64,000 bases of DNA from assembly GCA_029719485.1 (NCBI GenBank), contig CP120722.1, positions 930,001 through 994,000 on the forward strand, given 5' to 3'. The notes under the pieces were generated by a model that was given only the letters and a program-made list of their open reading frames with translations, searched no databases and was not told the DNA's origin. Every line of letters starts with the position of its first letter. Positions within the stretch are counted from its first letter, which is position 1. This stretch comes from Kiritimatiellota bacterium B12222 (GTDB taxonomy: Bacteria > Verrucomicrobiota > Kiritimatiellia > SS1-B-03-39 > UBA6053). Positions 3,764 through 50,275 of this stretch are shown here, one piece after another. Position numbers and translations under genes: made by a program.

Positions 3764-5797
3764 TTATTTAAGGATAATTTCACATTCTTGCCAAGCGAGT
3801 GCTGGCAGCTGAATGCTCTCTTCGGTTACAGACAGTGAGGGAGCACTGTCAGTTTTTTCTCCTCTGGTGATGGTCATGGTCCATTGTTGATCATCGACGG
3901 GTAGAAGTACATTTTGGAGTTCAAGTGAAGGGCCGGTTATTTCTTTTAAGTCTTTATTGAGGACGGTACGACTTAACAGCAGGTGCTGGCTTTCGGTCAA
4001 AGGTTTTCCGTCAAGAGATACCAAGACCAAGGTTTCAAAGCCCTCTGTTTCTGACATCTGTAGATGACGTAAACCTGCTGGAGGATTTCCATCCAAGGTG
4101 CCGGAAAAGAATTCCGCATGGGAGGAGGAGCCGGTCAATTGGTCTCTGGCCACATCCTTGATGAGTTCCCGGGTATCCGAGACCAGAGGATTCGGGGGAA
4201 GATCATTCATCCAGGGAGCCGTCGATTGGTCTTCGGGTTCAGGACCATAGGCCCGGCGAAATCCGTGGATATTCTGCCAGCCCGGTTCAAATTGATTCCG
4301 AGCCTGCACCAGACTGTGGTATTCGGGTGCCACATAGGGACCTTCCACCCAAATGGTTTTGGGGGCAACGCTTTTTTGGAAATAGCCTTCACGGAAGATT
4401 AATCCCATACTCCGCAAATGATCCTGCATTTGCATGTCCTGCATCATGGTGCCCAAATGCGAATCCCGATCCGGGACCGCTGCTCGTCCGTCCGGTCCCA
4501 TATAGGTATCGCCGTGCGACCAGGCAAACCACACCAGGCCATCCCAGTCTTGCAGCAATCCGTAGGCAGCCATGGCAACAGGCAACATCGTCCGGTACGG
4601 CTTTTGGTTTTTGATGTTGTCGCCACCTTCGGCCTGATTAAGTTCACCAATGAAGAAAGGTTTCCCTGCAAAGGCATGGCGGCTGACCGAACGGATGCCG
4701 TCATCTTTTTTGCGGGTGATCAGCGGATCGGTATACGAATGGTTCTCCATCCAGTCAGATTGCTGATAATGCATATCCGCCGCATTATCACTGCGGAACA
4801 GATTCGAGAAGGTCAGCGGAATCTCTCTTTGCGCAACTTTATTAAGGGTAGCCTGCATGCGCAGGAAATAGTCCTCATCCAATTTGCGGAGAAATTGTGC
4901 CCGCAAGGTAATCAACTGTTGGGTAGTGGGCTTGTAAATGTCTCCAGCCTCTTCCACTCCGGCCTCCCGGCAAAAGGACTCCCATTTTTCCGTCAGTTTG
5001 TTTTGGAAATATTCAGGGAATTTGTTGTGGCAGATGATCGCATACTCTGATGAAAATTCATTGATGACTTCCATCGTTAACACTTGGGGATCTTCCCCGT
5101 AGCTCAGTCCGGTGTAAGGATTTTCATGGTTCAGCACGTTGGTGATAAATTCTTCGCTCAACAAGGCGCAACGCTCGTCGATCACCGGTAACATTTTGAT
5201 TGGATCAAAAGACTTTTTCCAATGCCAGCTTCTCAACTCCTCTATGCCTTCCGCCCAGGCCGCCTCATCTTCGGGTGTGGTTTCCAAGATTCCCACATCG
5301 CCGGGCATAAAATTGCGGGTAAAGTGGGTGGACATGGCCAAATAAATCCCTTTTTCCCGCAGACGCGCGTTCAAATAGTCAAAGCGATCCATCGCTTCCA
5401 TATCCAGTTCCCGAGAGGTATCTTTGTAGGTTAACATCGCTCCGCCCGGAATGCCATGTACCCAATCTTTGCTGTTTCTCAGCATGTGATGCGGCCGCAC
5501 CAAATTGATCTGCCGGTCACTCAACTCGTCTGCCAGTCCCTCTGCTTGTTCTTTTGTAGGGTATACCGCGCAAAGGTTGACCCCCCAAAAGCGGACCACT
5601 TCATCATCTGCATTCACAAAATGTGCACCTTGAATGGTCAGAGGTTCAATATCGGGTTCCACAACAGATTGTACAATGGTTTCTTCTACGGGGTCGACAA
5701 CGATTTGTGCATCGGTTTCTTCAATCGCTTTTGGCGTGCAACCAAATTGCAGGCAAGCGAGAAAGAGAAGGGTGAGCATACATCTAACTGAGATCAT
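3764..5797 (-). CDS. Probable lipoprotein glycoside hydrolase, clan GH-A (GH5-like)
   Basis: The ATG at 5797 (MISVRCML) has an AAGGA ribosome site 8 bases upstream; the longer frame begins with TTG and lacks one. The 677-residue protein starts with a hydrophobic signal ending in QFGC, a weak lipobox with Cys20. A TIM-barrel enzyme domain follows: VINEFS near residue 240 fits the Asn-Glu acid/base pair of clan GH-A, and FIGELNQ near 385 fits the nucleophile Glu on strand 7. The last 150 residues look like a beta-sandwich. The exact GH family and substrate are not certain. It heads an operon with a pseudopilin. A TTGACG/TTTAAT promoter (5877-5882 and 5855-5860) and a TGTAT-N7-ATACA operator lie upstream, tying it to the regulator at 24000-25124. 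Confidence 0.75.
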   Translation of the reverse strand: MISVRCMLTLLFLACLQFGCTPKAIEETDAQIVVDPVEETIVQSVVEPDIEPLTIQGAHFVNADDEVVRFWGVNLCAVYPTKEQAEGLADELSDRQINLVRPHHMLRNSKDWVHGIPGGAMLTYKDTSRELDMEAMDRFDYLNARLREKGIYLAMSTHFTRNFMPGDVGILETTPEDEAAWAEGIEELRSWHWKKSFDPIKMLPVIDERCALLSEEFITNVLNHENPYTGLSYGEDPQVLTMEVINEFSSEYAIICHNKFPEYFQNKLTEKWESFCREAGVEEAGDIYKPTTQQLITLRAQFLRKLDEDYFLRMQATLNKVAQREIPLTFSNLFRSDNAADMHYQQSDWMENHSYTDPLITRKKDDGIRSVSRHAFAGKPFFIGELNQAEGGDNIKNQKPYRTMLPVAMAAYGLLQDWDGLVWFAWSHGDTYMGPDGRAAVPDRDSHLGTMMQDMQMQDHLRSMGLIFREGYFQKSVAPKTIWVEGPYVAPEYHSLVQARNQFEPGWQNIHGFRRAYGPEPEDQSTAPWMNDLPPNPLVSDTRELIKDVARDQLTGSSSHAEFFSGTLDGNPPAGLRHLQMSETEGFETLVLVSLDGKPLTESQHLLLSRTVLNKDLKEITGPSLELQNVLLPVDDQQWTMTITRGEKTDSAPSLSVTEESIQLPALAWQECEIILK

Positions 5798-5854
5798 AAA
5801 ATTTTTCCTTGAATGGTGGAACAAAACATAACGAGATTTACCTATAAAGATATC

Positions 5855-5907
5855 ATTAAACTCTGAACCCCTTTTTCGTCAATTCCTAATTGTATGTTTT
5901 TAATACA
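5855..5907 (-). promoter_or_regulatory. Promoter and TGTAT-N7-ATACA operator (site A) for GH lipoprotein
   Basis: Read on the minus strand, TTGACG (5882-5877) and TTTAAT (5860-5855) are spaced by 16 bp. Eight bases upstream of the -35 lies the palindrome TGTATGTTTTTAATACA (5891-5907), with perfect 5-bp arms and a 7-bp AT-rich centre. The position above the -35 would suit an activator or a DNA-looping repressor, unlike sites at 19778 and 21781, which lie between -35 and -10. Confidence 0.6.
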
Positions 5908-6333: not shown

Positions 6334-8307
6334 TCAAGCTCTCAATTGAAAACGGAATACTGCATCACCTTCAATCCACATGGGGAAGTTGGTTCCCCAA
6401 GCATTGTTACAGAGATTCACGGAAATACCTTCTGCCGGTTCTGGGAGCTGTCCGCTGTAATCCAGTAAGGATCCGTTGCCTAGAGCGACCAAAGGTGCAT
6501 CTAACGAAGTGAGTATGAAGCTGCCGTTGTTTACGTTCTGATCAATGGCATGGAGATTTCCCGTTCCCCGTTTCACTACATTTCGAGGGGAGACTTCTTT
6601 CCCTATTTTTTCAAAGATCCATTCAGTTGCTTCGTCAATTTTGGGTGCAAAAGACAACCATAAAGCTTCCGGCATGCGATTGGCGACTTTTCCATTCCAC
6701 TCAAGCCGAAGGTGCAGGTTTTCCTTTTCCACCCGCCACTCCATGAAAACTTTTGGCGGCGTGCCCGGGTTGTGAATGCGGTCTTCCGGAAAGGTCAATT
6801 CAAGTAACAGCGCCTCTTCGGATTCGTGCTGATAAAGTTTTTGAGCTTGGGGATGTATCCGCAGCGATGTGGCTTCGTCACCCAAACCCGGTTTGGTGAA
6901 GTCCTGACGCGACCACTCTTCTTCACCGCGAATATATTGATCATAAAAGCGATGGTAGTCATCGGCAGAGAAATGCTGATAGCTGAGGCTGCCCAAGGGA
7001 TGTGATGCATCCGCACAGATTTTTCCGGTGGGGGATTTGAGGTGAATCACCGCGCCGGTTGTTGGATCAAAGGCGATCTCCCACCCCTTTAACTTGTACA
7101 AGTCTGTCCAGCTTGTCGCCTGCCATTGATCAGAGACCTGCAAGCGTGGCTCAAGTTCATTCATCGCGATTTCGGCTTCATGACGTAAGGGGTGGGGTAA
7201 CTTTTTGAGGGCATCATCCACATAGTGCCTCTGCTCCAGCCAAGAACGTTCCAGCAACTGAAAGGGAGGGCTTTGTCGTACCGATTCAAATTGTGAAAGG
7301 CTGTAATGTTTCCAATCACGCAGATGGGTTTTTAGATCCATACCCCAAGTATGTTCCGCCGTGAGGAGCAGGGCTTCGCTCAGGGGGTGATCGACTTCAT
7401 CCCCCGGAAGGAGACGTTGATCTTCTAGCCATTGGGTTCGTAGCGCCGACAGTTGTCGGTAGCGGGACACTTTGTACGGGTCGGTTCCTGCACCATGAAT
7501 CCAGGAATCTCCAATCTCTTTATCCACCACGGGCAGGGAGTCGCGTTGATCCCAGACGGTGTCACTAAATTCAGAAAGGTTGGCGGGATAAATCGTTGCT
7601 GAAGGGTACTGCTGTTGTAGCTCATGATAAACGGCGGCCACTTCCTCCGGAGATTGTGGACCTAAATTATCACCGGTCAAATTTAAGGACAATGCACACT
7701 TTCCGGGCAAAGGATTCACACTTCCGTAATCCCCATTATAAATGACCACAATTTCATCTTCTCCGTACACCCAGCGAAATAAGGGCGGTACGTCTGGAAC
7801 CGCAGAGGCTGGGTTGATGCCCACATGTAAGAGGCGGATGCCGGCTTCCGCCAAATAGGGAATCATGGCCTGAGTATGACCGGGGACATCGGTTAATTTT
7901 GCGGCGGTGGTTTTACGTCCAAAGCGTTCATCCAAACGTTGGGAAATAGCCAAACCTGCGCGAAAGAGTTCTGGATTCATCAATTCGGTATGGCTGGTAA
8001 AGGGGAGGGCGTGCCAGTGAAAATCTCCTGCCAAAATCCCTTGTTCCATCTTTTTTCTCATCTCAGGAGAAGCGTGTTCTAGAAAGTATTCCGCAATCCA
8101 GCTTCCCGTGGTCCATACAAAGCGAGTAGGAGAATTTCGGGTTTGTTTTGCGAGATCGAGTGCGGTGGGGATGTAGTGATCGACATAGGATTTTAGAATC
8201 GTATCGGCCAGATCAGTGAAGCCAATGTCGAGGTGAGTTTTGAAAACCACGCCGATTTTATCAATAGACGGAGACGGTGTTTGGGAGTTGGTCATGTGGG
8301 AGTGCAT
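6334..8307 (-). CDS. DUF5054-type glycosyl hydrolase, GH38-like fold
   Basis: A 657-residue protein whose N-terminus has FKTHLDIGFTD (about residues 22-32), matching the His-x-Asp zinc and substrate motif of GH38-type deacetylase-like barrels, followed by TTGSWIAEYFLE, FHWHALPFTSHTEL and KLTDVPGHTQAM, where the Asp of TDVPGH is a plausible nucleophile. The C-terminal half is a beta-sandwich as in alpha-mannosidases. It resembles the family annotated as DUF5054, whose activity is not well known. There is no signal peptide, so it is probably cytoplasmic and acts on imported oligosaccharides. Start ATG 8307 is used; ATG 8295 is an alternative. It is divergent from 8497-8988 and shares the operator at 8425-8441 with it. 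Confidence 0.8.
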   Translation of the reverse strand: MHSHMTNSQTPSPSIDKIGVVFKTHLDIGFTDLADTILKSYVDHYIPTALDLAKQTRNSPTRFVWTTGSWIAEYFLEHASPEMRKKMEQGILAGDFHWHALPFTSHTELMNPELFRAGLAISQRLDERFGRKTTAAKLTDVPGHTQAMIPYLAEAGIRLLHVGINPASAVPDVPPLFRWVYGEDEIVVIYNGDYGSVNPLPGKCALSLNLTGDNLGPQSPEEVAAVYHELQQQYPSATIYPANLSEFSDTVWDQRDSLPVVDKEIGDSWIHGAGTDPYKVSRYRQLSALRTQWLEDQRLLPGDEVDHPLSEALLLTAEHTWGMDLKTHLRDWKHYSLSQFESVRQSPPFQLLERSWLEQRHYVDDALKKLPHPLRHEAEIAMNELEPRLQVSDQWQATSWTDLYKLKGWEIAFDPTTGAVIHLKSPTGKICADASHPLGSLSYQHFSADDYHRFYDQYIRGEEEWSRQDFTKPGLGDEATSLRIHPQAQKLYQHESEEALLLELTFPEDRIHNPGTPPKVFMEWRVEKENLHLRLEWNGKVANRMPEALWLSFAPKIDEATEWIFEKIGKEVSPRNVVKRGTGNLHAIDQNVNNGSFILTSLDAPLVALGNGSLLDYSGQLPEPAEGISVNLCNNAWGTNFPMWIEGDAVFRFQLRA

Positions 8308-8424: not shown

Positions 8425-8441
8425 TGTATGAAAATAATACA
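8425..8441. promoter_or_regulatory. TGTAT-N7-ATACA operator (site B)
   Basis: TGTATGAAAATAATACA, perfect 5-bp arms with a 7-bp centre, lies between the divergent starts of the DUF5054 gene (8307) and the secreted protein (8497). It could control both. A TGTATGTATCA stretch follows 3 bp further on and may be a degenerate second half-site. Confidence 0.6.
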
Positions 8442-18304: not shown

Positions 18305-18369
18305 TTTTGTTCCTCGTTTGCGGTACAGCTTTATTTGCCTGTATGCTGTCAGTTTTTTAGTGGCTGAGA

Positions 18370-18383
18370 CAAGTTTAAACTTG
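18370..18383. promoter_or_regulatory. 14-bp perfect palindrome CAAGTTTAAACTTG, possible LacI operator
   Basis: The palindrome lies in the 139-bp divergent space between the ten-gene operon (start 18304) and the LacI gene (18444). The position suits control of both by the LacI protein. LacI sites often have a central CG, which is missing here, so the assignment is uncertain. A looser repeat, TGTAATAAG with CTTATTTACA, follows between 18392 and 18425. Confidence 0.35.
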
Positions 18384-18443
18384 CAAAGAATCTGTAATAA
18401 GTGATGTAATTAATTCTTATTTACAATCTGTTTACAATTTTTA

Positions 18444-19397: not shown

Positions 19398-19767
19398 GCC
19401 CTCTTTTTTGTTGGAGGGGGAAGGGGAGTTCCTGAGCTACCCGTTGGCGGCATGCTTCGGTAAGTCTCAGAATTCACCCGAATTATCCAACTTGTGTCGA
19501 GCCTTTCCGAAGGGGACACGTTTTCGTAAAACCCTTATGATCTGAAATGGGATCTCAAGCTGTTTCGAGAGGTCCTGTTGATTCGATATTTTAAGTAATG
19601 GATGTTGTGATTTACTTGAATTTTACCGGTTAGACTTCTTTAGCGTGTTGTGATGTATCAATTTTATTCAATATGCACCTTGTTCTGAAAATTCGGTATT
19701 TCTATTATTTTTCATATAAAAGGCAAAGTAATGTTAAGGTGTTAACCGTATACTGAAAAAATACCTC
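19398..19767. other. Intergenic stretch without gene
   Basis: The 370 bp after the LacI stop are increasingly AT-rich towards the next promoter. A weak CCCTC-N10-GAGGG hairpin at about 19401-19425 may end the LacI transcript. No coding frame, RNA gene or further repeat was recognised. Confidence 0.4.
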
Positions 19768-19796
19768 TTGACCTATTTGTATTTATTAAATACATT
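19768..19796 (+). promoter_or_regulatory. Promoter with embedded operator (site C)
   Basis: TTGACC (19768-19773) and TACATT (19791-19796) are spaced by 17 bp, and the palindrome TGTATTTATTAAATACA (19778-19794) fills the spacer, so a bound protein would block polymerase. The segment CTTGACCTATTTGT is identical to that at site D (21770-21783), showing a duplicated promoter. The start of the PEP-CTERM gene is 9 bp downstream of the -10, leaving little or no leader; that distance weakens the exact -10 choice. Confidence 0.55.
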
Positions 19797-19805
19797 TAAA
19801 ACACT

Positions 19806-20627
19806 ATGAAAACACAAAGACATATTTCCTATCTTTTGATGACAGTATTGTTGGGCTTCTTTGCACAAGCCCAGGCAAGCCTTCTTTTTTATGAAGGATT
19901 TGATTACGGGGCGAGCGACGCATTGCTTACAACTGCGGGTGGCGCGAACTGGGTAAACACAACTGGCGATGACAATGCAGCCTATGTTGCATCAGGTCTC
20001 AGCTACGGAAGTTTAGCCACTTCCGGTGGAATGGTGCAGACGCAGACGAATTGGGGCACACGTGATTACGTTTACGATTTTGCAGATATTGACATTTCAG
20101 GAGAAGACGAAATTTGGCTCAGTATGCTGGTGCAAATGCCTGCGGCCATCGGGGGGAATACATCAGCTGAGTTCGGTATGACGATGGTTCGAAATTCTTG
20201 GGGAGGTGTCGTGGAGTACGAAGCTGGAAAAGGGTGGGGTAATGATGACGCCTACGTAAGTTCCAGAATGTCCCCGAATTCGATTACGGGAACGGATTAT
20301 GCAACGGTGGAGGATGACACGATTCTTTTAGTTTACCGTTTTACGAAAGGAGAAGCTGGAAGGTTGTGGGCGAATCCCACCTTGGGTAGCGAGCCGCTCG
20401 ATGTGAATGGACAAGTCTTGAATGACGGTGGCAACCCTGGGCTTACAAGTATTAATAAAATCAATATTACCTATTTAGGTCATCAAATGAACGTGGACGA
20501 ACTGCGGATTGGCACAACATTTGGTGATGTATCTCCAGTTCCTGAGCCTGGTGCTTTGTCGCTGATGGCGATTGCAGGATGCGTCTTTTGGGTAAGCCGC
20601 CGCTTCCGGCGCAGCAAGCGTTGCTAA
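19806..20627 (+). CDS. PEP-CTERM surface protein
   Basis: A 273-residue secreted protein with signal peptide (MKTQRHISYLLMTVLLGFFAQAQA), the opening LLFYEGFDYG shared with 17405-18304, a beta-type body with INITYLGHQMNVDELRIGTTFGDV near the end (a LamG-like ending), and the tail VPEPGALSLMAIAG, a hydrophobic stretch and RRFRRSKR. It is likely a surface or extracellular binding protein; no enzyme motif is seen. It stands alone between a promoter with operator site C and a strong terminator at 20669. Confidence 0.83.
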   Translation: MKTQRHISYLLMTVLLGFFAQAQASLLFYEGFDYGASDALLTTAGGANWVNTTGDDNAAYVASGLSYGSLATSGGMVQTQTNWGTRDYVYDFADIDISGEDEIWLSMLVQMPAAIGGNTSAEFGMTMVRNSWGGVVEYEAGKGWGNDDAYVSSRMSPNSITGTDYATVEDDTILLVYRFTKGEAGRLWANPTLGSEPLDVNGQVLNDGGNPGLTSINKINITYLGHQMNVDELRIGTTFGDVSPVPEPGALSLMAIAGCVFWVSRRFRRSKRC

Positions 20628-21770: not shown

Positions 21771-21799
21771 TTGACCTATTTGTTTAAATTAAATACATT
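21771..21799 (+). promoter_or_regulatory. Promoter with embedded operator (site D)
   Basis: TTGACC (21771-21776), 17-bp spacer, TACATT (21794-21799). The spacer contains TGTTTAAATTAAATACA (21781-21797), the TGTAT-N7-ATACA palindrome with one changed base in the left arm. The layout matches site C exactly. The gene start is 133 bp further down, so a leader is transcribed here. Confidence 0.5.
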
Positions 21800-21932: not shown

Positions 21933-22760
21933 ATGAAGACCCCACATAGATCACATCGCCTCTTTTTTTCCTGTCTGATGTTGTTTGCTACTGGCATTAC
22001 CTCGTCAGACGCAGCCATGTTGGCTGTTGATTGGGGTGGAAATTATGTGGGTGGCGGTAGCGAAGCCTTCTCTTCAGATGGAGGCTTCACCGGCGGCAAC
22101 CCGGATGTATTAAGTCCAACCGCAAGTTACAGCGGAAGCAGTGCAACCTTTTACGGGAAATATGAGGCCTTTTCCGGCAGCCCAACTCCTGTCTCATTCA
22201 ATGAAATTCAGGATAGTGGAACCACGGACCGCATCCAACTCAAAACTGCAGACTCGGCAGGCGGTCAGAATACCGGCTTTCTGGTGCTCTGGAAGCAAGC
22301 GGATTTTCTGAATGGTCTCGACTCCGGAATGGTGGGGCTTGATGCCTCGTCCTCACTCCAAATCAGTCTCACAACCTACGCCAATCAGGATGCGACGGAC
22401 AGCGGTCGACTGGTGTTGCGCTTGGGTTCAGATTATTATACCTCAAACCGGATTTTTACGGGCACGGGAACCACTACGACTCCAGACCCCACCGCACTCA
22501 CTTTCTATGCGTATGATCCTGTCACCACGACTATCAATATTAACAATCCAACAGTATCCACGGATATTGTCAGCGGTGGAGTGATCAGTGGTGTCACTGA
22601 GATCGGTTTCTATTTTGAAAGTATTGCTTCGGCAAACGCCGTACGGGTGTCCGAATTTTCCGTAAACATGGTCTCCATCCCGGAGGCAAGCACTTGGGCT
22701 TTGGTGGTATTAGGCTTAATTCCTATTGCGTTGACACGTAAAAAAAAGCTTCGCTTCTGA
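21933..22760 (+). CDS. PEP-CTERM-type surface protein with PEAS variant
   Basis: A 275-residue secreted protein: signal peptide (MKTPHRSHRLFFSCLMLFATG..., cleavage near SDAAM), then MLAVDWGGNYVGGG, a body rich in Ser, Gly and Thr, and a C-terminal IPEASTWALVVLGLIPIAL plus TRKKKLRF. The sorting motif is PEAS instead of PEPS, but position, hydrophobic segment and basic end match the family. No domain is recognised. The promoter carries operator site D. The transcript is likely ended by the hairpin at 22945. Confidence 0.8.
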   Translation: MKTPHRSHRLFFSCLMLFATGITSSDAAMLAVDWGGNYVGGGSEAFSSDGGFTGGNPDVLSPTASYSGSSATFYGKYEAFSGSPTPVSFNEIQDSGTTDRIQLKTADSAGGQNTGFLVLWKQADFLNGLDSGMVGLDASSSLQISLTTYANQDATDSGRLVLRLGSDYYTSNRIFTGTGTTTTPDPTALTFYAYDPVTTTININNPTVSTDIVSGGVISGVTEIGFYFESIASANAVRVSEFSVNMVSIPEASTWALVVLGLIPIALTRKKKLRF

Positions 22761-23999: not shown

Positions 24000-25124
24000 T
24001 TATCTATTACGGTTTGTGCAGGAGTCTCTTTCCACCAATCGACAGGGAAGTCGGGGGTGAAGATCGTTGTCCACATTTGTTTTTTCCAGGCGATCTATGA
24101 GCAGGTGTGCAGCATGTTCACCCATTTCGAAGAGGGGTTGATGCATGGTGGTAAGGGGTGGGGTGGTGATGGCGGAGGAAGGTAAATCATCAAAACCAAC
24201 GACACTCACTTCTTCTGGAACTTTCCACCCACGTTTTTCACATGCCTTGAGTACGTTCAGGGCGATAAGATCATGCAGGCAAATGATGGCTTCCGGGGGT
24301 TCACGCATGGCCATAAATACGTCCACGGCTTGTCGTCCTTGAATTGCAGGGTCCAGGCCTGCGGTTTGCAGGAAATAATGAGGAGGAATTTCGAGATTAT
24401 GTTCGGCCATGGCTTGGCGGAATCCTTCTTCTCTTTCGATGACGGACTCAATGGGGTGACTGGTCAAAAATGCTATTTTTTTGTGTCCCATTGCGATCAC
24501 ATAGGAGGTGAGTTCGTGCATGGCTTCGCGGTTTTGACTACTGATGCTCGGGAATTCAGATTCGGGGGCATAGGTGTCGGCGATCACGACTTGTTGATCT
24601 GCGCCGTGTAGCGCTTGCACAATTTTATCCAGTTCTTCATTTTCATCCGGGCCGGTTTGGAGAGGCATGACGATGGTGCCGGCTACACGAATTTCATTGA
24701 GACGCTTCACTTGATCCAACGCCGTGTAAGGATTGTTTTGAGAATTGCTTACCAGTAATTCGTAACCGCGTTCCGCGCAGGCGCTCATGGCCCCTTTTAC
24801 ACAAAGATCATATGCGCCGAGGACATGACCAAATTGACAGACCAAGATGGACAGCAAATGCTGTTGGGTTTCTGAACGTTGAAAGCTTACATAGGTGCCT
24901 TTTCCCTGATGGCGCACCAACAGACCTTCTTCTACCAATTCTGAAATCGCTCTGCGCACTGTGGAGCGTGAGATGTTGAATTGTCGGCATAACTCCATCT
25001 CAGGCGTCAGTTGACCGCCCGGACCAAATTGACCGGATAAAATGCGGTTGCGCAATTTGTTTTTGATTGCGGTATAAGGGGTGACTTTGTTTAAGTCTTC
25101 TTTTTTATTTTTTACGGATGGCAT
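24000..25124 (-). CDS. GntR/LacI hybrid sugar-responsive regulator
   Basis: The start is ATG 25124 (MPSVKNKK); the longer frame begins with TTG. The 374-residue protein has a GntR winged helix-turn-helix in residues about 16-85 (PYTAIKNKLRNRILSGQF, ELCRQFNISRSTVRRAISEL, HQGKGTYV) joined to a LacI/periplasmic-binding-protein-like sensor (LSILVCQFG through CLHDLIALNVL and VVGFDDLPSS). This is the AraR-like architecture used for sugar-responsive repressors. It is divergent from the unknown protein/GH38 operon at 25321, and the space between contains TGTAT-N7-ATACA, matching the GT...AC pattern of GntR-type sites. This and the recurrence of the site make it the best candidate to control that regulon, including itself. 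Confidence 0.9.
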   Translation of the reverse strand: MPSVKNKKEDLNKVTPYTAIKNKLRNRILSGQFGPGGQLTPEMELCRQFNISRSTVRRAISELVEEGLLVRHQGKGTYVSFQRSETQQHLLSILVCQFGHVLGAYDLCVKGAMSACAERGYELLVSNSQNNPYTALDQVKRLNEIRVAGTIVMPLQTGPDENEELDKIVQALHGADQQVVIADTYAPESEFPSISSQNREAMHELTSYVIAMGHKKIAFLTSHPIESVIEREEGFRQAMAEHNLEIPPHYFLQTAGLDPAIQGRQAVDVFMAMREPPEAIICLHDLIALNVLKACEKRGWKVPEEVSVVGFDDLPSSAITTPPLTTMHQPLFEMGEHAAHLLIDRLEKTNVDNDLHPRLPCRLVERDSCTNRNR

Positions 25125-25243
25125 GGTGAAAAAGTTAGGTGACTCGTGGGCAATGGGTATCAATTCTGATCTGTAAGTCAACAACGGGACGGACTGTGTA
25201 ACATATAAGCTGAAGACTGTGACTTTTAGTGAATTATCTAGGT

Positions 25244-25260
25244 TGTATTATTTTAATACA
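25244..25260. promoter_or_regulatory. TGTAT-N7-ATACA operator (site E)
   Basis: TGTATTATTTTAATACA, with perfect arms, lies 119 bp from the regulator start (25124) and 60 bp from the start of 25321. It is the copy next to the proposed regulator gene, consistent with autoregulation. Confidence 0.62.
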
Positions 25261-25320: not shown

Positions 25321-26448
25321 ATGACAGATCCTGCAACAGTAAAGAAATCAGAGGGAGGGGTAACGATTCCGTTCTTTTCTGAAAACAGTTTTTGGAATAC
25401 CGCGATACCGGAAAGTGCTTGTGAGGATGCACGAAGTGAGGAGTGGATAAACTTGTTGGATACCGCGCAGGAAGGAAGAGGGCTTCATATCAATTTAAAG
25501 GAGTGGACGATTCCGGTTTTCGAAGCGGATGCGGGTACGTCTGTGGTGAAACTACATCCTAAGTTGCCACGCTGTCCGCTTTCCCAGGGGCATATGATGG
25601 CTTCGGAACCTAAGTTGGGACCTTCGCATCCCTGTGGATTGCATGCGAGTGTTCAGGATGGGGTGCCTATTCCTCCGGAGGCGGTACCTGATCCTTGTCA
25701 TGATGCGCATATGGTGGTGGTGGATCCGTCGTCAAATCGGGCTTTTGATTTTTGGCAGTGTCGTCAAGAAGTGGATGGCAGTTGGCACAGTAATTCGGCG
25801 ATTTCCTACGAGCTCGATGGGCCTGGCATTTTTGAGCCCTCCGATTTAGACGGGATTGAGAATGATGAAAGTGTGCATCTTTATGGACCTTGTCGTGCCA
25901 GTGGGGTTCCGGCATTGGCGGGACTGATCATGGAAGATGAAATTCGTGGTGGTCGTATTGCCCATCGGTTGGCGTTTGCATGTCCGGTGCCCGCGCTTCA
26001 GGAGCGGGTGTTTCCTCCGGCGGCATGGACAGATGGTTGGTTACCGGGGGGCGTTCCGGAAGGATGTATTTTGCAGTTGGATCCCGCGTTGGATTTGGAG
26101 TCGCTTTCATTATCACCTGCGGCAAAAATTGTGGCGCGTGCCTTGCAAGAATTTGGCGCGGTATTGGTGGATTACGCGGGGAGTGTTACGCTGTCGGGCG
26201 AATTGCTCACGCCTCATCCCGGTCGTAGCTGGGATGGGCTCTTGGGCGAATGGGATTTAGGGGAATTACCTTTGTCGCATTTTCGAATTTTGGATACAGG
26301 ACCGATGGAGCACACGGGTTCGCATCCTGTTTATCATCAGGGAATGTCTGCGCTCTTTTACGGGTATTTGGAAAAACATGGAGAATCCGTGATACCTAAA
26401 CGCTCATATAACGAGCATGCTGTTCAAACTTCAGGGGCCTCTGCATAA
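25321..26448 (+). CDS. Protein of unknown function coupled to alpha-mannosidase
   Basis: A 375-residue protein without signal peptide or membrane segment. A block FFSENSFWNTAIPESA near residues 19-34 and HGASVQD-like and NDAHMVVVDP-like stretches mark a conserved globular domain; HPVYHQGMSALFYGYLEK is near the C-terminus. Trp, His and Asp pairs are frequent, as in carbohydrate-active proteins, but no named family is recognised. Its TAA shares the final A with the ATG of the GH38 gene (TAATG), so translation is coupled and the two proteins are probably made in fixed ratio. It could be an accessory hydrolase, lyase or epimerase for the same glycan. The ribosome site is GAGA before ATG 25321. 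Confidence 0.7.
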   Translation: MTDPATVKKSEGGVTIPFFSENSFWNTAIPESACEDARSEEWINLLDTAQEGRGLHINLKEWTIPVFEADAGTSVVKLHPKLPRCPLSQGHMMASEPKLGPSHPCGLHASVQDGVPIPPEAVPDPCHDAHMVVVDPSSNRAFDFWQCRQEVDGSWHSNSAISYELDGPGIFEPSDLDGIENDESVHLYGPCRASGVPALAGLIMEDEIRGGRIAHRLAFACPVPALQERVFPPAAWTDGWLPGGVPEGCILQLDPALDLESLSLSPAAKIVARALQEFGAVLVDYAGSVTLSGELLTPHPGRSWDGLLGEWDLGELPLSHFRILDTGPMEHTGSHPVYHQGMSALFYGYLEKHGESVIPKRSYNEHAVQTSGASA

Positions 26449-29400
26449 TGAAATATCCTGAAATTACTGAAGGCAGAATCGCGCAGTCTCTTCCCCGTTT
26501 GGCGCATATTTCTTATGGTGAAACTGCGCCGGTTTCTGTATCTGCATGGCATGTGGGTGGCGAACCGGTTTCGTTAGAGCTGGCGATGGCAGCTTCCTAT
26601 GTGCCTTTTAAAGTAGGACAGGAATGGGGGCCCTTGTGGGACACAACATGGTTTTGTATGGAAGGTCGCATACCCTCGGAGTGGGAGGGGCGTGAGGTTG
26701 TATTACTGGTTCGACTGAATGACGGTGGACGTGAAGGCTTCACCACGGAAGGGTTGGTTTACCACGGGGAGACCTTGGTATGTTCGTTGAATGTCAATCG
26801 TTGTGAAATACCGGTCGGAGATTTTTGTGCTGCGGGTGAGTCTTTTCAAATTCGCATTGAAGCGGCTTCGAATATTGCTTCAGGTGATGGTGCGCTTCCT
26901 GAGCCGGGGGACTTCCCTCGGTTTAAATTGGCGCAAGCCGAATTGGCATGTCCAGATCGTGAAGGCTTGGCGCTGTTGACGGACTTGCATGTCTGTTGGG
27001 AGGCCTTGCAGACGCAACCTGAAAACGGTCCCCGTCGGGCGGAATTACGTAAAGCGTTGAATCTTAGTTTGCATGAGGCAGATGCGGGAAAGATAACGTT
27101 GGCCCGCGAGTTGTTGAAGCCGGTGATGCAAAAACGAAATGGGGATACGGTTCATCAGTTAACTGCAATCGGGCACTGCCATATCGACACCGCATGGCTG
27201 TGGCCGTTGCGGGAATCGATTCGGAAATGTGCACGCTCTTTTGTATCGGCTGTCAATTATATGGAGGACTATCCTGAGTATATTTTTGGATGTTCGCAGG
27301 CGCAGCAATATCATTGGATGCAGCAGCGTTATCCCGAATTGTTTAAACGCATTCAAGCGAAAGTAAAAGAAGGTCAATGGGAGCCCATTGGCAGTATGTG
27401 GGTGGAAATGGATTGTAATCTGGCCGGTGGGGAATCGCTGGTACGTCAGATTTTAAAAGGGAAGCGCTTCTTTGAAGAAAACTTTGGGTATGAAACGCGG
27501 GATGCGTGGATTCCAGATGTATTTGGATATTCTGCAGCCCTGCCGCAAATCTTTAAAAAGTCGGGTATTGATTATTTTGTTACTCAGAAAATCTCTTGGA
27601 ATCAGACCAATTCCTTTCCACATCATACCTTCCAATGGGAGGGTATTGATGGCACGCGGGTATTTACGCATTTTCCTCCGGCGGATACCTACAATTCTGA
27701 AATGAATGTAGATTCCTTGGTGTATACGGCCAATAACTTCAAAGATCATGAAGTGCTTGACCGTTCGTTGTATGTGTATGGTTTTGGAGATGGCGGGGGA
27801 GGACCCACCATCGAAATGTTGGAGCGCATGCGGCGTCTTGAAAATTTTGAAGGGATTCCTCCGATTGCTCCGGGCAAGGTGGTTGATTTTTTAAAGGAGG
27901 CCGAGGCGGCTGCGGATAACTTACCCGTTTGGGTAGGGGAGTTATATTTGGAACTGCATCGAGGTACCTATACCACGCAATCGCGAACCAAACGCAACAA
28001 CCGGAAATGTGAAATTTTGCTTCACGATGCGGAGTATGCCGATGCACTGTCTGCATGGTTGATTCCTGATCGAAAAGAGGCGGCGACGGATCCGGAACAC
28101 GCGGTGTACGATATGAGTCCTGTGGGGGTGTTCACACATGCTGCCGCCTTGGATCGTGCATGGAAATTGGTGTTGTTGAATCAATTTCATGATATTATTC
28201 CCGGATCGTCGATTACGTGGGTCTATGAAGACGCGGAACGCGATTATGCCAATGTGCGGGAACTTTGTCGCTCGGTGTTGGAGCCGTCAGTGGCGGGGCT
28301 CGATACGTTGATGGATACCTCTGCGTTTACCCATCCTGTACGGGTGATGAACACGCTCGGGTTTGCAAGAACTGAAGTTGTTGAGTTGCCCGGGGGTGAG
28401 TTGCAAAGCGTGCAGGTTCCTGCCTGTGGTCACACTGTGGTAGAAAAGAATGGGACGACCTCTGAAAAAATGACGAGGGTTGAGGTGCAAACTTCGCCTG
28501 AAGGACTGGTGTTGTCTAACGGGATCTTGAGAGCGACTTTTTCAGATCAAGGATTGCTAACCGGTTTGTGGGATGAAGAGGCTCAGCGGGAAATCATGCC
28601 CGAAGGACAGGTGGGTAATGTATTGCAACTTCATCCTGATCGTCCGAATGAATGGGATGCTTGGGATGTGGATGTGTTTTATAAGGAACGCTGTGAGGAT
28701 CTGGTGGGCTGTGAGGGTGTGGAAGTGGTCGAGGCTTCGCCACTGCGTGCACGAATCCGTCTGCATCGCCGTTTTGGATCATCTACTTTGACCCAGGATA
28801 TTGTGATGCGGGCTGGTAGTCGTCGGATCGATTTTGAAACCGAAGTAGAGTGGCATGAGTCCCATCAATTTTTGAAAGTAGCGTTTCCGGTGGATATACT
28901 TTCTGCGAAAGCGACCTATGAAATTCAGTTCGGGCATGCTGAGCGTCCCACTCATGTCAATACCAGTTGGGATCAGGCTCGATTTGAAGTCTGTGCGCAC
29001 AAATGGGCAGACTTGTCGGAGTCCGGTTATGGAGTGGCGTTGATGAACGACTGCAAATATGGCTATGACATTCAAGGGAACGTGATGCGGTTAAGTTTAT
29101 TGCGGGCGCCCAGCTCTCCAGATCCTACAGCAGATAGAGGGAAGCATGTGTTTACCTATGCGTTGTTTCCACATGTGGGCACTTGTCAGGACAGTGGGGT
29201 GATTGAAGAGGCCTTACAATTGAATGTGCCTTTGCGAGTAGATGAAGTGAGTTGTCAGACGGGACGTCTGGCGAGCGAGCAGTCATGGTTCTCTTTGGAT
29301 AACCCCAGTATTTTAATAGAAGCGGTGAAGCTGGCGGAAGATGGAAGAGATCTTATTGTCCGTCTGTATGAAAGCCGTGGGGGGCGGGGGCGCGCTCAGC

Positions 29401-29540
29401 TCAGAACGACTTTACCAGCGCGTGCTTGTATGGAGACTGATTTGTTAGAGCGAGCACAAGCAGAACTTCCGTTGATCGATGGAATGGTCAGTTTGAGTTT
29501 CACTCCGTTCGAAATCAAAACGCTGCGGTTTACGGCCTGA
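26448..29540 (+). CDS. GH38-family alpha-mannosidase
   Basis: A 1030-residue class II alpha-mannosidase, the usual bacterial and lysosomal length. After an N-terminal beta domain, the catalytic barrel starts with GHCHIDTAWLWP (residues about 243-253; His and Asp bind zinc), followed by SQAQQYHWMQ, and WIPDVFGYS near 354 with the Asp nucleophile. NQFHDIIPGSSI near 582 gives another zinc-site His. C-terminal beta-sandwich domains follow (KHVFTYALFPH). There is no signal peptide, so it should act in the cytoplasm and remove mannose from imported oligosaccharides. It overlaps the upstream unknown gene by 1 base and is under the GntR/LacI-type operator at 25244. Confidence 0.93.
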   Translation: MKYPEITEGRIAQSLPRLAHISYGETAPVSVSAWHVGGEPVSLELAMAASYVPFKVGQEWGPLWDTTWFCMEGRIPSEWEGREVVLLVRLNDGGREGFTTEGLVYHGETLVCSLNVNRCEIPVGDFCAAGESFQIRIEAASNIASGDGALPEPGDFPRFKLAQAELACPDREGLALLTDLHVCWEALQTQPENGPRRAELRKALNLSLHEADAGKITLARELLKPVMQKRNGDTVHQLTAIGHCHIDTAWLWPLRESIRKCARSFVSAVNYMEDYPEYIFGCSQAQQYHWMQQRYPELFKRIQAKVKEGQWEPIGSMWVEMDCNLAGGESLVRQILKGKRFFEENFGYETRDAWIPDVFGYSAALPQIFKKSGIDYFVTQKISWNQTNSFPHHTFQWEGIDGTRVFTHFPPADTYNSEMNVDSLVYTANNFKDHEVLDRSLYVYGFGDGGGGPTIEMLERMRRLENFEGIPPIAPGKVVDFLKEAEAAADNLPVWVGELYLELHRGTYTTQSRTKRNNRKCEILLHDAEYADALSAWLIPDRKEAATDPEHAVYDMSPVGVFTHAAALDRAWKLVLLNQFHDIIPGSSITWVYEDAERDYANVRELCRSVLEPSVAGLDTLMDTSAFTHPVRVMNTLGFARTEVVELPGGELQSVQVPACGHTVVEKNGTTSEKMTRVEVQTSPEGLVLSNGILRATFSDQGLLTGLWDEEAQREIMPEGQVGNVLQLHPDRPNEWDAWDVDVFYKERCEDLVGCEGVEVVEASPLRARIRLHRRFGSSTLTQDIVMRAGSRRIDFETEVEWHESHQFLKVAFPVDILSAKATYEIQFGHAERPTHVNTSWDQARFEVCAHKWADLSESGYGVALMNDCKYGYDIQGNVMRLSLLRAPSSPDPTADRGKHVFTYALFPHVGTCQDSGVIEEALQLNVPLRVDEVSCQTGRLASEQSWFSLDNPSILIEAVKLAEDGRDLIVRLYESRGGRGRAQLRTTLPARACMETDLLERAQAELPLIDGMVSLSFTPFEIKTLRFTA

Positions 29541-29654: not shown

Positions 29655-29697
29655 TTGACAGGGGGTTCTTTTGCGTTGTATTAATTACGTAATTAAT
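29655..29697 (+). promoter_or_regulatory. Sigma70-type promoter overlapped by 18-bp palindrome
   Basis: TTGACA (29655-29660), an 18-bp spacer and TATTAA (29679-29684) form a good promoter. ATTAATTACGTAATTAAT (29680-29697) is a perfect palindrome with central CG covering the -10, the pattern of LacI-family operators. A second, imperfect TGTTTACGTAACA follows at about 29704. The LacI protein at 18444 is the only LacI regulator seen, and GTAATTAAT also occurs near its own start (about 18405). The intergenic space 29541-29974 holds no other convincing gene. Confidence 0.55.
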
Positions 29698-29974
29698 AGT
29701 AGATGTTTACGTAACACGTTTATGCTGTGTGAAAATCATCCCGTACTTTTTTTATCTGATTATTTCCCCAACACTTTCAAAATTATGTCACTAAATCGTC
29801 TCCGTAGCCCCTTGCATCTTTTTGATGCGGTTCTGTGTTTGGGTCTGCTTGCTTGGAATGCTGTAAAACTGCAAGAGATCGTAGGAAATGCGAAGTAGCG
29901 TCGGCTATAAATTTTTAATACTCCCTCAACCCATTATAATATCGATTCAAAATATCCCACCTCAAGAGAACACT

Positions 29975-32900
29975 ATGTCATACTTCTTTCAAAAATTCTT
30001 CATTGGACTGCTCACCTTATGCTCACTCGGTCTCACGGCTGCAGATCTGAGTTTATTATCAAACAATATTCAACCGGGAGCCTTTAATGAAAGTTTTCCC
30101 AGTGGAACGAATGTATCGCCTACCACTCTCACGGCCACCTGGGTGACCACAGGAGAGTATGCCACGGATCCGGAAACGATCAGCACGGGTAAAGAGGGGG
30201 CCAAGGTATTGTTTGATGGCAATACCGGAAGCAATTGGAAAAGTAGAACCTATAGCAAGTGGAGTGGAGGCCAGTGGGTGACCCTGGTGGTGGATTTGGG
30301 CGCGCTACAAACTGTAGAAGCCTTTGACGTGTGGGCTTTGCATGAAGCGACACGAGACACCGGCAGTTTTACGGTTTTACTCAGTGAAGATGGAAAAAAC
30401 TTCAAAGCTCATGGCACGGCCAGTTCTGAGGATCAGCCTAAAGAGAGTAAACGTATTGCTAAAATAAGTTTGAAACTCGATGCGCCGGTCAAAGCACGAT
30501 ATGTTCAATTTCGCATGAAACAGGGCAAGGGGGCGAAGCAACAACAGATTGCCGAAATTGCGATTTGGGGAGAGCGTACAGGGGGAGAACCTCAGGCCGT
30601 GAGTGCTGTGGTGACTCCAGAGGAATCCCCAGCTCAAGTTCCAGCCCAAGCTCCGGTTTCCTCGAATGCAAAAACAGCCACTGCGGTGACCGAATTACAT
30701 TTGCTTTCTAACAATATTCCGGAGGGACGTTTCAATGAGTATTTTCCTAAGGGAACCAAAGTTCAAGCCACGGATTTGAAGTTAGAATGGGTGACGACAG
30801 GAGAGTATGCTACTGATCCAGAGTCGATCTCAACCGGGAAAGAGGGGGGTAAGGTTTTGGTGGATGGCAATGCGGGAAGCAATTGGAAAAGTCGTACCTA
30901 CAGTAAATGGAATGGAGGACAATGGGTAACGGTTGTGGCTGATCTCGGATCACCGCATGCGGTGCAGGCTTTTGATGTCTGGGCTTTGCATGAAGCCACC
31001 CGTGACACTGAAGCCTTTTTTGTGTTGTTGAGTGATGATGGAGAAAACTTCACGCCTCACGGTATGGCCAGCAGTCAGGATCAGCCTTTGGAAAATAAAT
31101 TTATTGCCAAGATGAGTTTGACCCTCGATGCACCAGTGAAAGCCCGTTATGTGAAATTCCGTATTAAACGCCTTAAGAGTGCTCGTCAGCAGCAGATCGC
31201 GGAAATTTCGATTTGGGGATCACGTCCCGAAGAGGGCGTTCATTATTTGGGTGCGGATAGTCGTCCCAAAGTTCAGTTTACGGTGGAGACGATTCAGGCG
31301 GGGATTATAAAAGTTGATTGGTCCGAAAACCGTCAGCTCCATGATGGGGTAAGCTCTTGGAAGATCTATACGGCGGATGCGGATTTCGAAAACGTGAAGG
31401 ACGCGGAGGTGAGTGTCCTCAAGACGGTTCCTGGTAAATTTTCTCATGCCTTGGTGTATCCGATGATACCAGGTAAGGAATATGTGGTTGGGGTCACGGC
31501 CGTATATCCCCAGGGAGAGTATGCGTTGGTAAATCCTGTAACCGTCAAGATGCCCATGCCTCTTGAGTGTGATACCTTTGGCGATATGGTGGCGGTGAAT
31601 CATTTTTGGGGTGGGGGCGGACATCGTAACAGTCGCGGAGCTGACCAGGCTTCTTATGATTTAGTCGCCTTGGATCTGTTGGGAAAATCAGGGATCAAAC
31701 AAACCCGTTGGTGGGTGGTTGATCCTAAAATTTATAAGATGTTTTATGAAAAAGGGGTGGGGGTATATACGTATCCGCACAGTAATAATATCCAAGAAGC
31801 TACGAAGTTAGGGGTCTATGCCTTTTCCGGACCGGGTAATGAGCCTGATTTAAAAACAACCCCGATTTCCACTTATGTGACTAATTTGAAAAAGGTGTAC
31901 GAAAAAATAGAGCGGGAAAATCCTGACGCCGTGGTTTGCGCACCGTCTAGTGGTCTCGAGGATTCGTCTATTGCCTGGTTGGATAAATTTTATGAATTGG
32001 GCGGCAAAGATTATTTTGATGTGTTGGATCTGCATACCTATTGCAAGATTGCCGGAGGACATGTGGTACCGGAAGGGTATCCAGCTGGCGCACCGGAAGC
32101 AATGTATGATAACATGCGGAAGATTAATGAAATTCTGGTGAAATATGGGGATGCGGATAAACCGGTAATCTCCACAGAGTTTGGATATAGTGATGCCTTG
32201 GTCAACAATCCATCGGGACGAATCACTCCGCAGATTAAGGCTGAGTTTTTGGTGCGTGGACTGATTATTCATCACTCCTTAGGATTTAAACGGGTGTTTA
32301 TGTATTCCTTTTGGGATGAAGGGGAGGATATGAATTTCTCGGAACATCGCTTTGGACTGTTGGATTATGACCTACAGAAAAAAGAGGCCTATTATGCGGT
32401 GGAGACTTCTCTGAAACAAATTGGCGACAGTTCTCTTGAAGGTCCCGTAGAAAATTTGGAATCTCCGTCCTTTGGGTACGTCTACCGTAAACCAACTGGT
32501 GAAGCGCGGGTATCGGTGATCTGGGATGGTGCCCAACGGAAGTCAGGCGTGTTCCAAACTCAGTCGAAAACAGTGCGCGTGGTGGATATGTATGGCCATG
32601 CGGAAGAGGTAATGCCTGATGAGCAAGGACAGTTTTCGGTAACCTTTGGGGCATCACCCGTTTACCTTCATACGGAAGGAACTCTCAAGGTGGTGCGTAC
32701 GGAAGAGGCACGGCCCGAAGTAGGGTCGGGTCCGGTTCTCGTTCATTTGGAACAGGCACAAGTGATTGTGGCTGCTGATGCAAAAAATGCGCGTTTGCCG
32801 GTGGAGCTTGATAATCCCAATGCGTATGAAATTCCGTTGCAACTGATCGTGAAAGACGGGAAAGGAGAAACGCTTTCAAAAATGACCTTCACTGCACCCG

Positions 32901-33823
32901 CGTCTGAACGCTCGGTTGCCGAAGTGGTTTTGCCCATCATGAAAGATACGCCACTGGCGCTGTTGCAATTAAATGTAGTGGAACCTCAACCCTCCGGTGT
33001 GGGATCGCGGGTGACCAGCGTTCCGTTCTATCTGCGAAGTCTACGGACGGCAGCTGCGAAACCCGAAACGGATACGGTGGCTTTTCCTGAGCTGGAGAAA
33101 CCGGTGTACGTGCTGAGTAGTCCGGAGCTCGCGGTCTCGATTGATGCCGCTAGAGGGGGGCGTCTTTTAGAATTTATTGACCGGGCCTCTGCGACCAATC
33201 AGGTACGAATTGATTATGCTGTGTTACCCAATATTGATAATATTCCATTCGCATTTGGCATCTGGGATACTTTTAATGGCAAGCTCAAAAACGCTCCCAT
33301 GGACGTGGTGAAAGCTGCGGATGGACAATTGGAACTGACCGGAAAAGCTGGAGATCTTGAAGTAACGCAACTCTGGACTCTGAAAGGGAATACCTTAACC
33401 ATGGCCATGAAAGTTCACAACGGATCTGGATCCGATAAGGCCTTTTCTTACAAACAACACCCTGAATATACGGTGGGTGGTGTGGGAGAATCTGTGGTGG
33501 ATGTATTGGGATTCCCTCGGGAGACTACGTTCGAAACCATCCCCTTTTGGAGCGGATTAGGGAAAAAGAAATCGGGTGAACTATTTGGCAATTGGTGGGC
33601 TGCAGTTGATACCGTCAATGGAATGGCGCTCAAGCAACAGGTCAGTGGTGAAGGCTGGGCTGAACCCGGGGTTTGGTTTGGACAAGGGCATTACAACATT
33701 GAATTTTCAACGGTGCGTGGATTTAAAATTGCGGCCGGTCAGACCTGGGAGGCTCAATCCGAATGGTCTCTGTATGCGGTGGATAAAGGAGATATCCAAA
33801 CCATCTTAGAATCATTGCGATAA
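29975..33823 (+). CDS. Exported GH-A-type glycoside hydrolase with tandem discoidin-like domains
   Basis: The start is ATG 29975 (MSYFFQKF); the track upstream to 29888 lacks a signal peptide context. The 1282-residue protein has a signal peptide (cleavage near LTAAD), two homologous F5/8 type C-like domains (residues about 24-190 and 245-425, each with GEYATDPE(T/S)ISTGKEG, G(S)NWKSRTYSKW and FDVWALHEATRDT), a fibronectin-like linker, then a TIM barrel: GPGNEPD near 618 gives the acid/base Asn-Glu, ISTEFGYSD near 731 the nucleophile Glu. C-terminal beta domains complete it. The pattern suits clan GH-A families such as GH39-like or related; the exact family is unknown. It probably acts on an extracellular or periplasmic glycan bound through the discoidin domains. 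Confidence 0.8.
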   Translation: MSYFFQKFFIGLLTLCSLGLTAADLSLLSNNIQPGAFNESFPSGTNVSPTTLTATWVTTGEYATDPETISTGKEGAKVLFDGNTGSNWKSRTYSKWSGGQWVTLVVDLGALQTVEAFDVWALHEATRDTGSFTVLLSEDGKNFKAHGTASSEDQPKESKRIAKISLKLDAPVKARYVQFRMKQGKGAKQQQIAEIAIWGERTGGEPQAVSAVVTPEESPAQVPAQAPVSSNAKTATAVTELHLLSNNIPEGRFNEYFPKGTKVQATDLKLEWVTTGEYATDPESISTGKEGGKVLVDGNAGSNWKSRTYSKWNGGQWVTVVADLGSPHAVQAFDVWALHEATRDTEAFFVLLSDDGENFTPHGMASSQDQPLENKFIAKMSLTLDAPVKARYVKFRIKRLKSARQQQIAEISIWGSRPEEGVHYLGADSRPKVQFTVETIQAGIIKVDWSENRQLHDGVSSWKIYTADADFENVKDAEVSVLKTVPGKFSHALVYPMIPGKEYVVGVTAVYPQGEYALVNPVTVKMPMPLECDTFGDMVAVNHFWGGGGHRNSRGADQASYDLVALDLLGKSGIKQTRWWVVDPKIYKMFYEKGVGVYTYPHSNNIQEATKLGVYAFSGPGNEPDLKTTPISTYVTNLKKVYEKIERENPDAVVCAPSSGLEDSSIAWLDKFYELGGKDYFDVLDLHTYCKIAGGHVVPEGYPAGAPEAMYDNMRKINEILVKYGDADKPVISTEFGYSDALVNNPSGRITPQIKAEFLVRGLIIHHSLGFKRVFMYSFWDEGEDMNFSEHRFGLLDYDLQKKEAYYAVETSLKQIGDSSLEGPVENLESPSFGYVYRKPTGEARVSVIWDGAQRKSGVFQTQSKTVRVVDMYGHAEEVMPDEQGQFSVTFGASPVYLHTEGTLKVVRTEEARPEVGSGPVLVHLEQAQVIVAADAKNARLPVELDNPNAYEIPLQLIVKDGKGETLSKMTFTAPASERSVAEVVLPIMKDTPLALLQLNVVEPQPSGVGSRVTSVPFYLRSLRTAAAKPETDTVAFPELEKPVYVLSSPELAVSIDAARGGRLLEFIDRASATNQVRIDYAVLPNIDNIPFAFGIWDTFNGKLKNAPMDVVKAADGQLELTGKAGDLEVTQLWTLKGNTLTMAMKVHNGSGSDKAFSYKQHPEYTVGGVGESVVDVLGFPRETTFETIPFWSGLGKKKSGELFGNWWAAVDTVNGMALKQQVSGEGWAEPGVWFGQGHYNIEFSTVRGFKIAAGQTWEAQSEWSLYAVDKGDIQTILESLR

Positions 33824-39483: not shown

Positions 39484-39817
39484 AGAAATGTCAGATCAAG
39501 ATCGTGCGCAACAGTTGGTTGAAAAAGAAATTTTACAGCCGATGGAAGCGAAGGAAGGAACGGCTCAGAAATTTTCCCGAAGACTTCTGATGAAACCCTC
39601 ATGCACATGGGGAGTGGTGCTTAAAAATGGACTGCGCTCTTTTACCGTGCGTACACCACTCGGAAGTCAATATTTGGGTCTGTATGAAAAAGAGACCGGT
39701 ACGCTTTATCTCCTGAATGCAGAAAGTAAAATTTTTGTATTGGCCGCAGATCATCCTTACTTTGAGCAGGTGAAAAATTCTATTCTGCTACCAGAGGAGC
39801 ATCCATCCGTTCCATAA
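39422..39817 (+). CDS. Small exported protein of unknown function
   Basis: The start is ATG 39422 (MKKIISLT) with GGAG eight bases before it; it lies inside the 3' end of the DUF2306 gene, in another frame, by 62 bases, so the two are probably co-transcribed. The 131-residue product has a signal peptide (MKKIISLTLMCLFPLFLSA) and a mature part of about 110 residues (QKFSRRLLMKPSCTWGVVLKNG...SQYLGLYEK) with no recognised domain. Its 3' end overlaps the convergent gene 39780-42857 by 38 bp. Confidence 0.7.
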   Translation: MKKIISLTLMCLFPLFLSASEEMSDQDRAQQLVEKEILQPMEAKEGTAQKFSRRLLMKPSCTWGVVLKNGLRSFTVRTPLGSQYLGLYEKETGTLYLLNAESKIFVLAADHPYFEQVKNSILLPEEHPSVP

Positions 39818-50186: not shown

Positions 50187-50275
50187 AACATTTCCTTCAT
50201 AAATTAATTTCCTCATAAAAGGTATGACCTATGATATCCCTGATTCGCAACCTATAAATGCAACCACTTCTCACA

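Follow-up and report, generated by a model that had tools for sequence, protein, structure and literature searches.

A candidate glycan-cleaving protein family encoded beside a GH38 alpha-mannosidase and found in phage tail proteins

What is the function of a gene that overlaps the start of an alpha-mannosidase gene and whose product matches no family in the protein libraries? The question is raised by a 64,000-nucleotide stretch of Kiritimatiellota bacterium B12222 (the window; bases 930001-994000 of the single 4.43-Mb contig that makes up the genome), in which an open reading frame (ORF) for a 375-residue protein runs into the gene of a glycoside hydrolase family 38 (GH38) enzyme. We propose that the 375-residue protein is probably a cytoplasmic glycan-cleaving carbohydrate-active enzyme (CAZyme) and a pathway partner of GH38, most likely a glycoside hydrolase, with a hydrolase placed ahead of a lyase. 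This reading is considered best because enzymes that act on glycan chains are common to the breakdown and the synthesis of polysaccharides, to phage tails and to fusions with carbohydrate-binding modules (CBMs) or RTX repeats, and because the family has invariant acidic residues and histidine.

The stop codon TAA of the 375-residue ORF has one base in common with the ATG of the GH38 ORF (26448-26450). The latter was found by Pfam scan to carry Glyco_hydro_38N (E 4.5e-96) followed by the middle, 38C and C2 domains, an ordered set of 38N, middle and 38C that places it in GH38, and its best solved relative is Ams1 (E 2.4e-190, residues 29-1028). We take the 375-residue ORF to be a genuine gene, since a 79% identical copy is present in a second species of the genus (genome G093, apparently the source of locus L001) and homologues are present in other families and phyla. 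In this second species the GH38 protein is likewise 79% identical to that of the window, the 375-residue gene overlaps the GH38 start via ATGA, and a regulator homologue (84% identical) lies divergent and upstream of the pair. No signal peptide was apparent in the 375-residue protein, with a highest N-terminal 15-residue mean hydrophobicity of 0.29 compared to 2.21 in the lipoprotein-like protein encoded at 3764-5824. An earlier note on this DNA had described a cytoplasmic protein joined to GH38 by a TAATG fusion under a sugar operator; the fusion is borne out by the ORF coordinates, the hydrophobicity is in line with a cytoplasmic location, and the operator is present as the palindrome TGTATTATTTTAATACA.

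The 375-residue protein matched no Pfam-A and no NCBIfam family at E<=1 and, either as a single sequence or as a profile (A1), no PDB chain at E<=10. Profile A8 found nothing credible among PDB sequences, eight divergent members yielded only FG-GAP repeats and one chance match (E 0.2) in Pfam, and seven members yielded no NCBIfam family at E<=0.01. By its sequence relationships, the protein is a member of a broad family that has no name in these libraries (Pfam, NCBIfam and PDB sequences). Among 387 genomes of the phylum, the family was detected in 15, at 21 places, by single-sequence search (E<=0.001) and in 25, in some as fragments, by profile search (E<=1e-5). Matches by tblastn were found in 9 of 72,556 plasmid records (E<=0.01), from Bradyrhizobium, Streptomyces, Tsukamurella, Rhizobium, Indioceanicola, Kitasatospora and Mitsuaria, and in 41 of 50,697 phage records (E<=1), all of them Gordonia phages; among the 20 phage matches listed, 16 are annotated as minor tail protein and 4 as hypothetical protein. 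Pairwise profile comparison joined the window branch to a broad bacterial branch with Streptomyces and Verrucomicrobiota (E 4.5e-23) and to a phage and Rhizobium branch (E 3.4e-21), and residues 191-292 of the 375-residue protein, and these only, were found homologous to the minor tail protein family phrog_17388 (E 1.6e-9). Viral scans with L022 and with alignment A2 detected no relative, and L039, from the viral scan with L011, was rejected as a chance FAPNFDGW match inside another protein. Two family domains stand in tandem in a single 762-residue ORF (L030:8436-10721), and two family genes (7197-8216 and 17539-19518) occur in one stretch of one genome in L034. In the open-licence PMC literature, covered by titles and abstract starts, no title found named the family, and its motif words led only to papers that were, by title, on unrelated subjects.

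Conservation was counted over 40 aligned members, which are not 40 independent lineages because close relatives are included; residues are numbered as in the window protein. The count leaves out L004, L005 and L009 (the same genes as window, L001 and L021), the fragments L023 and L024, phage copies L040, L042, L044-L046, L048, L049, L052 and L066-L079, phage matches not fetched, plasmid hits H4 and H8, and members detected by profile search alone. D128, H215, G248 and G279 were invariant (40/40), followed by P233 (97%), D284 (95%, 38/40) and E207 (88%, otherwise D or Q). The WN motif to which the earlier note had drawn attention proved to be a family signature, with W25 occurring in 88% of the members and N26 in 80%. 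The only Ser or Cys of the window protein conserved in at least 70% was S23 (82%), within this N-terminal region's motif, and none of its Lys, Arg or Tyr residues was conserved in 70%; the latter would mildly disfavour common lyase chemistry and favour an acid-pair hydrolase. The GPCRASG stretch was considered as L,D-transpeptidase-like, and this reading was rejected, as the Cys is absent in phage and other members.

The genes near family members were compared in 17 loci (window, L001-L003 and L026-L038), by scanning selected ORFs (1 to 3 each in L030, L033, L035, L036 and L038). In 12 of these (window, L001, L002, L003, L026, L027, L028, L029, L031, L032, L034 and L037) a glycosidase, carbohydrate esterase, BNR-repeat protein, glycosyltransferase or homologue of the window pathway was found near the family gene. 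L028 has GH130 and GH29 near the family gene, L031 has GH94 together with a rhamnosidase-hairpin protein, L029 has a SASA esterase domain, and L032 has BNR-repeat (sialidase-like) and DHDPS-family proteins. The first family gene of L034 (7197-8216) abuts or overlaps glycosyltransferase genes on either side, and a glycosyltransferase adjoins the family gene in L037. Members whose start is not hydrophobic (window, L001, L002, L006-L008, L010, L011 and L019) are in loci with catabolic neighbours; a hydrophobic start was seen in L013 and L016, which lie beside glycosyltransferases, and in L014, L015 and L022.

Association with GH38 was strongest among close relatives. For members about 49% or more identical, GH38 was found within 10 kb in five of six (window, L001, L002, L027 and G228), lying divergent to and adjoining the family gene in L002, and a GH2 gene is located about 1.4 kb from the sixth (L003). 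The 15 family genomes (71.3 Mb) hold 72 GH38N matches, 3 of them below cut-off, and GH38 lies within 10 kb of 4 of the 21 family places (G000, G093, G189 and G228), or 3 when the two congeneric species are taken as one. All three independent places of the close branch have GH38 (0.07 expected, P 8e-6), a branch that was chosen after the data were seen.

The plasmid-borne members point to further glycan settings. In Indioceanicola two family genes, one with C-terminal RTX repeats, flank a GT2 glycosyltransferase gene, with GT4 and sugar-transferase genes further along; GT2 and Wzy_C genes are near the family gene of Rhizobium rhododendri; and that of Mitsuaria is clustered with rfbC, wecB, kdsA and a glycosyltransferase gene. 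The Bradyrhizobium gene has a gene of the sialidase family on one side and a type I secretion system on the other, and in Tsukamurella the family domain is fused behind CBM60 and PA14. The Streptomyces members have no comparably clear setting, one of them adjoining a heparin lyase I family gene.

Whether the pair belongs to a wider regulon was examined with a search pattern built from the palindrome upstream of the 375-residue gene and its L001 counterpart. At <=2 mismatches, the window gave five sites (10 matches over both strands, against 0.10 expected, a number reached by 0 of 100 shuffles); given how the pattern was built, the site at 25244 is no independent test, and the other four are. 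When the whole 4.43-Mb genome was searched with a slightly looser palindrome at <=1 mismatch, five places were found, four of them in the window, and the reversed control gave 0; the fifth (G000:C1:515647) lies inside a coding ORF and was taken as chance. The four window sites precede the genes of a 686-residue protein, a DUF5054 protein and ORF 19806-20627, and the 375-residue/GH38 pair. The second species has matching sites before its 686-residue, DUF5054 and 375-residue/GH38 genes, and one more site with 2 mismatches (L025:4059). We infer that the sites are bound by the adjacent divergent regulator, presumably composed of a GntR-type DNA-binding head and a LacI-like sugar-binding part. Positions of these and the other features are given in Table 1.

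Table 1. Positions, strands and supporting observations for the features of the window, counted from its first base.
Feature	Position	Strand	Basis
375-residue protein ORF, proposed glycan-cleaving enzyme	25321..26448	+	stop TAA 26446-26448; no Pfam, NCBIfam or PDB match
TAATG stop/start overlap with mannosidase gene	26446..26450	+	read from ORFs
GH38 alpha-mannosidase, Ams1-like, 1030 residues	26448..29540	+	Pfam domains; Ams1 match
Asp128 codon	25702..25704	+	40/40 aligned members
Glu207 codon	25939..25941	+	E in 88%, otherwise D or Q
His215 codon	25963..25965	+	40/40 aligned members
Asp284 codon	26170..26172	+	95% of aligned members
Divergent regulator	24000..25184	-	homologues near family members in L001, L026, L027
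Palindromic operator TGTATTATTTTAATACA, between regulator and 375-residue genes	25244..25260		pattern search; counterpart at matching place in second species
686-residue lipoprotein-like protein	3764..5824	-	weak GH5 endo-mannanase match
Operator site upstream of 686-residue gene	5891..5907		pattern search; counterpart in L025
DUF5054 protein	6334..8307	-	sub-threshold GH38N match
Operator site upstream of DUF5054 gene	8425..8441		pattern search; counterpart in L025
Operator site upstream of ORF 19806-20627	19778..19794		pattern search
Weaker operator-like site (2 mismatches) upstream of ORF 21933-22760	21781..21797		pattern search

The 686-residue protein, the start of which we take to be lipoprotein-like, gave a weak profile match to a GH5 mannanase (3pz9; E 0.0033, 45 residues). 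In L026, L027 and the second species a homologue of this protein is encoded within about 10 kb of the family gene, and a search of 15 genomes detected the protein in 7, namely 7 of 11 with the family and 0 of 4 relatives without it by single-sequence search; one of these four, G186, has a partial family profile match, and the search excluded family genomes G101, G133, G168 and G177. A homologue of the DUF5054 protein is encoded at a like distance (within about 10 kb) from the family gene in L026 and the second species, and DUF5054 was found in 5 of 15 genomes searched, including G186. The window DUF5054 protein has HLDIGF near its N-terminus and a sub-threshold GH38N match (22.7 bits), on account of which DUF5054 may be a GH38-like group; no paper found in the open-licence PMC literature mentioned DUF5054.

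ORFs 19806-20627 and 21933-22760, presumably of PEP-CTERM type, have CTTGACCTATTTGT and AAATACATT in common around their operator-like palindromes, and surface proteins may therefore share a regulon with the glycan enzymes. Beyond GH38, a distinct perfect palindrome, ATTAATTACGTAATTAAT, at 29680-29697 precedes the gene of a 1311-residue F5/8-type-C protein (29888-33823) and suggests a second regulator for the genes past GH38. Four large ORFs of the window had no Pfam match at E<=1e-4: 33914-36280 (788 residues), 39780-42857 (1025 residues), 47337-50216 (959 residues) and 58941-62519 (1192 residues).

For the fold of the family, relative L060, from a viral contig, was modelled by AlphaFold on 18 sequences (A8) with a predicted local distance difference test (pLDDT) score of 77.4 and a predicted template modelling (pTM) score of 0.83. 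A Foldseek search of the PDB with this model gave no match at E<=0.001 (best E 1.0), a miss that is compatible with a known fold. The best result by VIA comparison was Z 3.0 over 62 residues, to BrnT; this match and those to an RNA polymerase chain (2.7) and several MYST acetyltransferases (about 2.5) were taken as chance. By contrast to the PDB, predicted viral structures gave five matches at E<=0.001, one of them to a minor tail protein of a Gordonia phage (E 9.4e-14; TM 0.70, normalised to the length of the query), and the L060 model is supported because the viral models that it matched were made by others. These results do not prove a new fold.

How might the 375-residue protein function? 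In the proposed pathway, it would act on imported oligosaccharide one step ahead of or past the Ams1-like GH38 exo-alpha-mannosidase. The divergent GntR/LacI-type regulator would sit on the palindrome and be released upon sugar binding; the 686-residue lipoprotein would cleave the polymer outside the cytoplasm; oligosaccharides would be imported and then dismantled by the DUF5054 protein, the 375-residue protein, with a putative active site of Asp128, Asp284, Glu207 and His215, and GH38. The stop/start overlap would hold the 375-residue protein and GH38 in proportion. Other branches may perform like chemistry on other glycans, by trimming exopolysaccharide during synthesis or opening cell-envelope glycans at the phage tail. 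More tentatively, and as a possibility that we rate short of probable, the members could form a new CAZyme family with a fold outside the PDB and an Asp-His-Asp centre, at work in utilisation regulons, exopolysaccharide clusters and actinobacteriophage tails, with the window branch directed to alpha-mannose oligosaccharides.

The earlier note had offered a new enzyme or a partner required by the mannosidase. Gene context and the invariant Asp and His favour the enzyme, and the required partner found no support. An obligate subunit of GH38 would account for the overlap in both species of the genus and for GH38 near five of six close members, but at 17 of the 21 family places no GH38 match came within 10 kb, G099 and G274 carry the family with no GH38 match anywhere in either genome, overlap with GH38 is limited to these two same-genus species among the loci examined, and GH38 enzymes are known to work alone; we regard such a subunit as exceedingly improbable. 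The unrelated housekeeping family that the note had named as its contrary case was not borne out. A mutarotase, epimerase or isomerase of released monosaccharides would be suited to a protein without signal peptide whose operator is common to other pathway genes, yet it is very unlikely, as the members with hydrophobic starts, the CBM60 and RTX fusions and the phage tail genes are left unexplained.

Two further alternatives, each unlikely to a similar degree, take the glycan settings into account. Esterases are found in catabolic and exopolysaccharide loci as well as in phage tails, and a carbohydrate esterase, such as a deacetylase that strips acyl groups ahead of GH38 and other enzymes, would agree with the invariant Asp and His and with the SASA domain adjoining in L029. 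S23, the sole Ser/Cys at the 70% level, lies however in the N-terminal motif, and a metal-dependent esterase, which fits better, usually needs additional His/Asp ligands. The protein could instead be a non-catalytic carbohydrate-binding protein that delivers substrate to GH38 and similar enzymes: phage tail proteins often bind glycans, and fusion to CBM60/PA14 or RTX is no proof of catalysis. Against this, the invariant polar residues of the 40 members are more like those of an active site, the Tsukamurella protein already carries its own CBM60, and sugar pathways seldom include free-standing binding proteins in the cytoplasm.

Several results must also be weighed against the proposal of a glycan-cleaving enzyme. 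The invariant Asp and His could hold a metal or sugar without catalysis. No neighbour of the glycan-related classes was seen in L030, L035, L036 and L038, and only a DHDPS-family gene in L033 (1-3 ORFs scanned each); among neighbour classes, random expectation was computed for GH38 alone, and the GH38 excess over all 21 places is modest (0.46 expected; P 0.011 for at least 3 and 0.0013 for at least 4). Despite a 53% identical regulator, L026 gave no operator site. The structure prediction and fold search that the earlier note had proposed came out divided: relative L060 could be modelled and matched viral models, but L060 is just 20% identical to the window protein, and the AlphaFold model of the window protein itself (alignment A4: window, 3 relatives and 11 phage domains) was poor (pLDDT 44) and was set aside.

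If the family does cut glycans, it would represent a new enzyme family, provide a function for phage tail domains and unannotated exopolysaccharide-cluster genes, and add a fold for which the searches made gave no solved relative. It is present in three bacterial phyla and in phages, and its invariant residues are offered as targets for mutation. In the window, a ready pathway of operator, GH38, weakly GH5-like lipoprotein and DUF5054 protein narrows the search for substrate.

Among known systems, the Ams1-like GH38 alpha-mannosidases are represented by the product of the neighbouring gene (E 2.4e-190), whereas the 375-residue protein has no GH38 match in Pfam. The GH5 endo-beta-1,4-mannanases (3pz9) resemble the 686-residue protein of the same regulon, by the weak profile match over 45 residues only, and are a lead for that neighbour rather than for the 375-residue protein. 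The exopolysaccharide-cleaving enzymes of rhizobial exopolysaccharide loci, which we take to be of ExoK/ExsH type, find a parallel in family genes that lie among glycosyltransferase genes or beside type I secretion genes, with RTX repeats in one; the family domain differs in that Pfam scans of a set of members assigned it to no family. Finally, the Gordonia phage tail proteins, of 722 and 742 residues, have extra N- and C-terminal parts and are about 23-28% identical to the window protein, but have a domain homologous to it, as indicated by the phrog_17388 profile (E 1.6e-9), tblastn and the match of the L060 model (E 9.4e-14).

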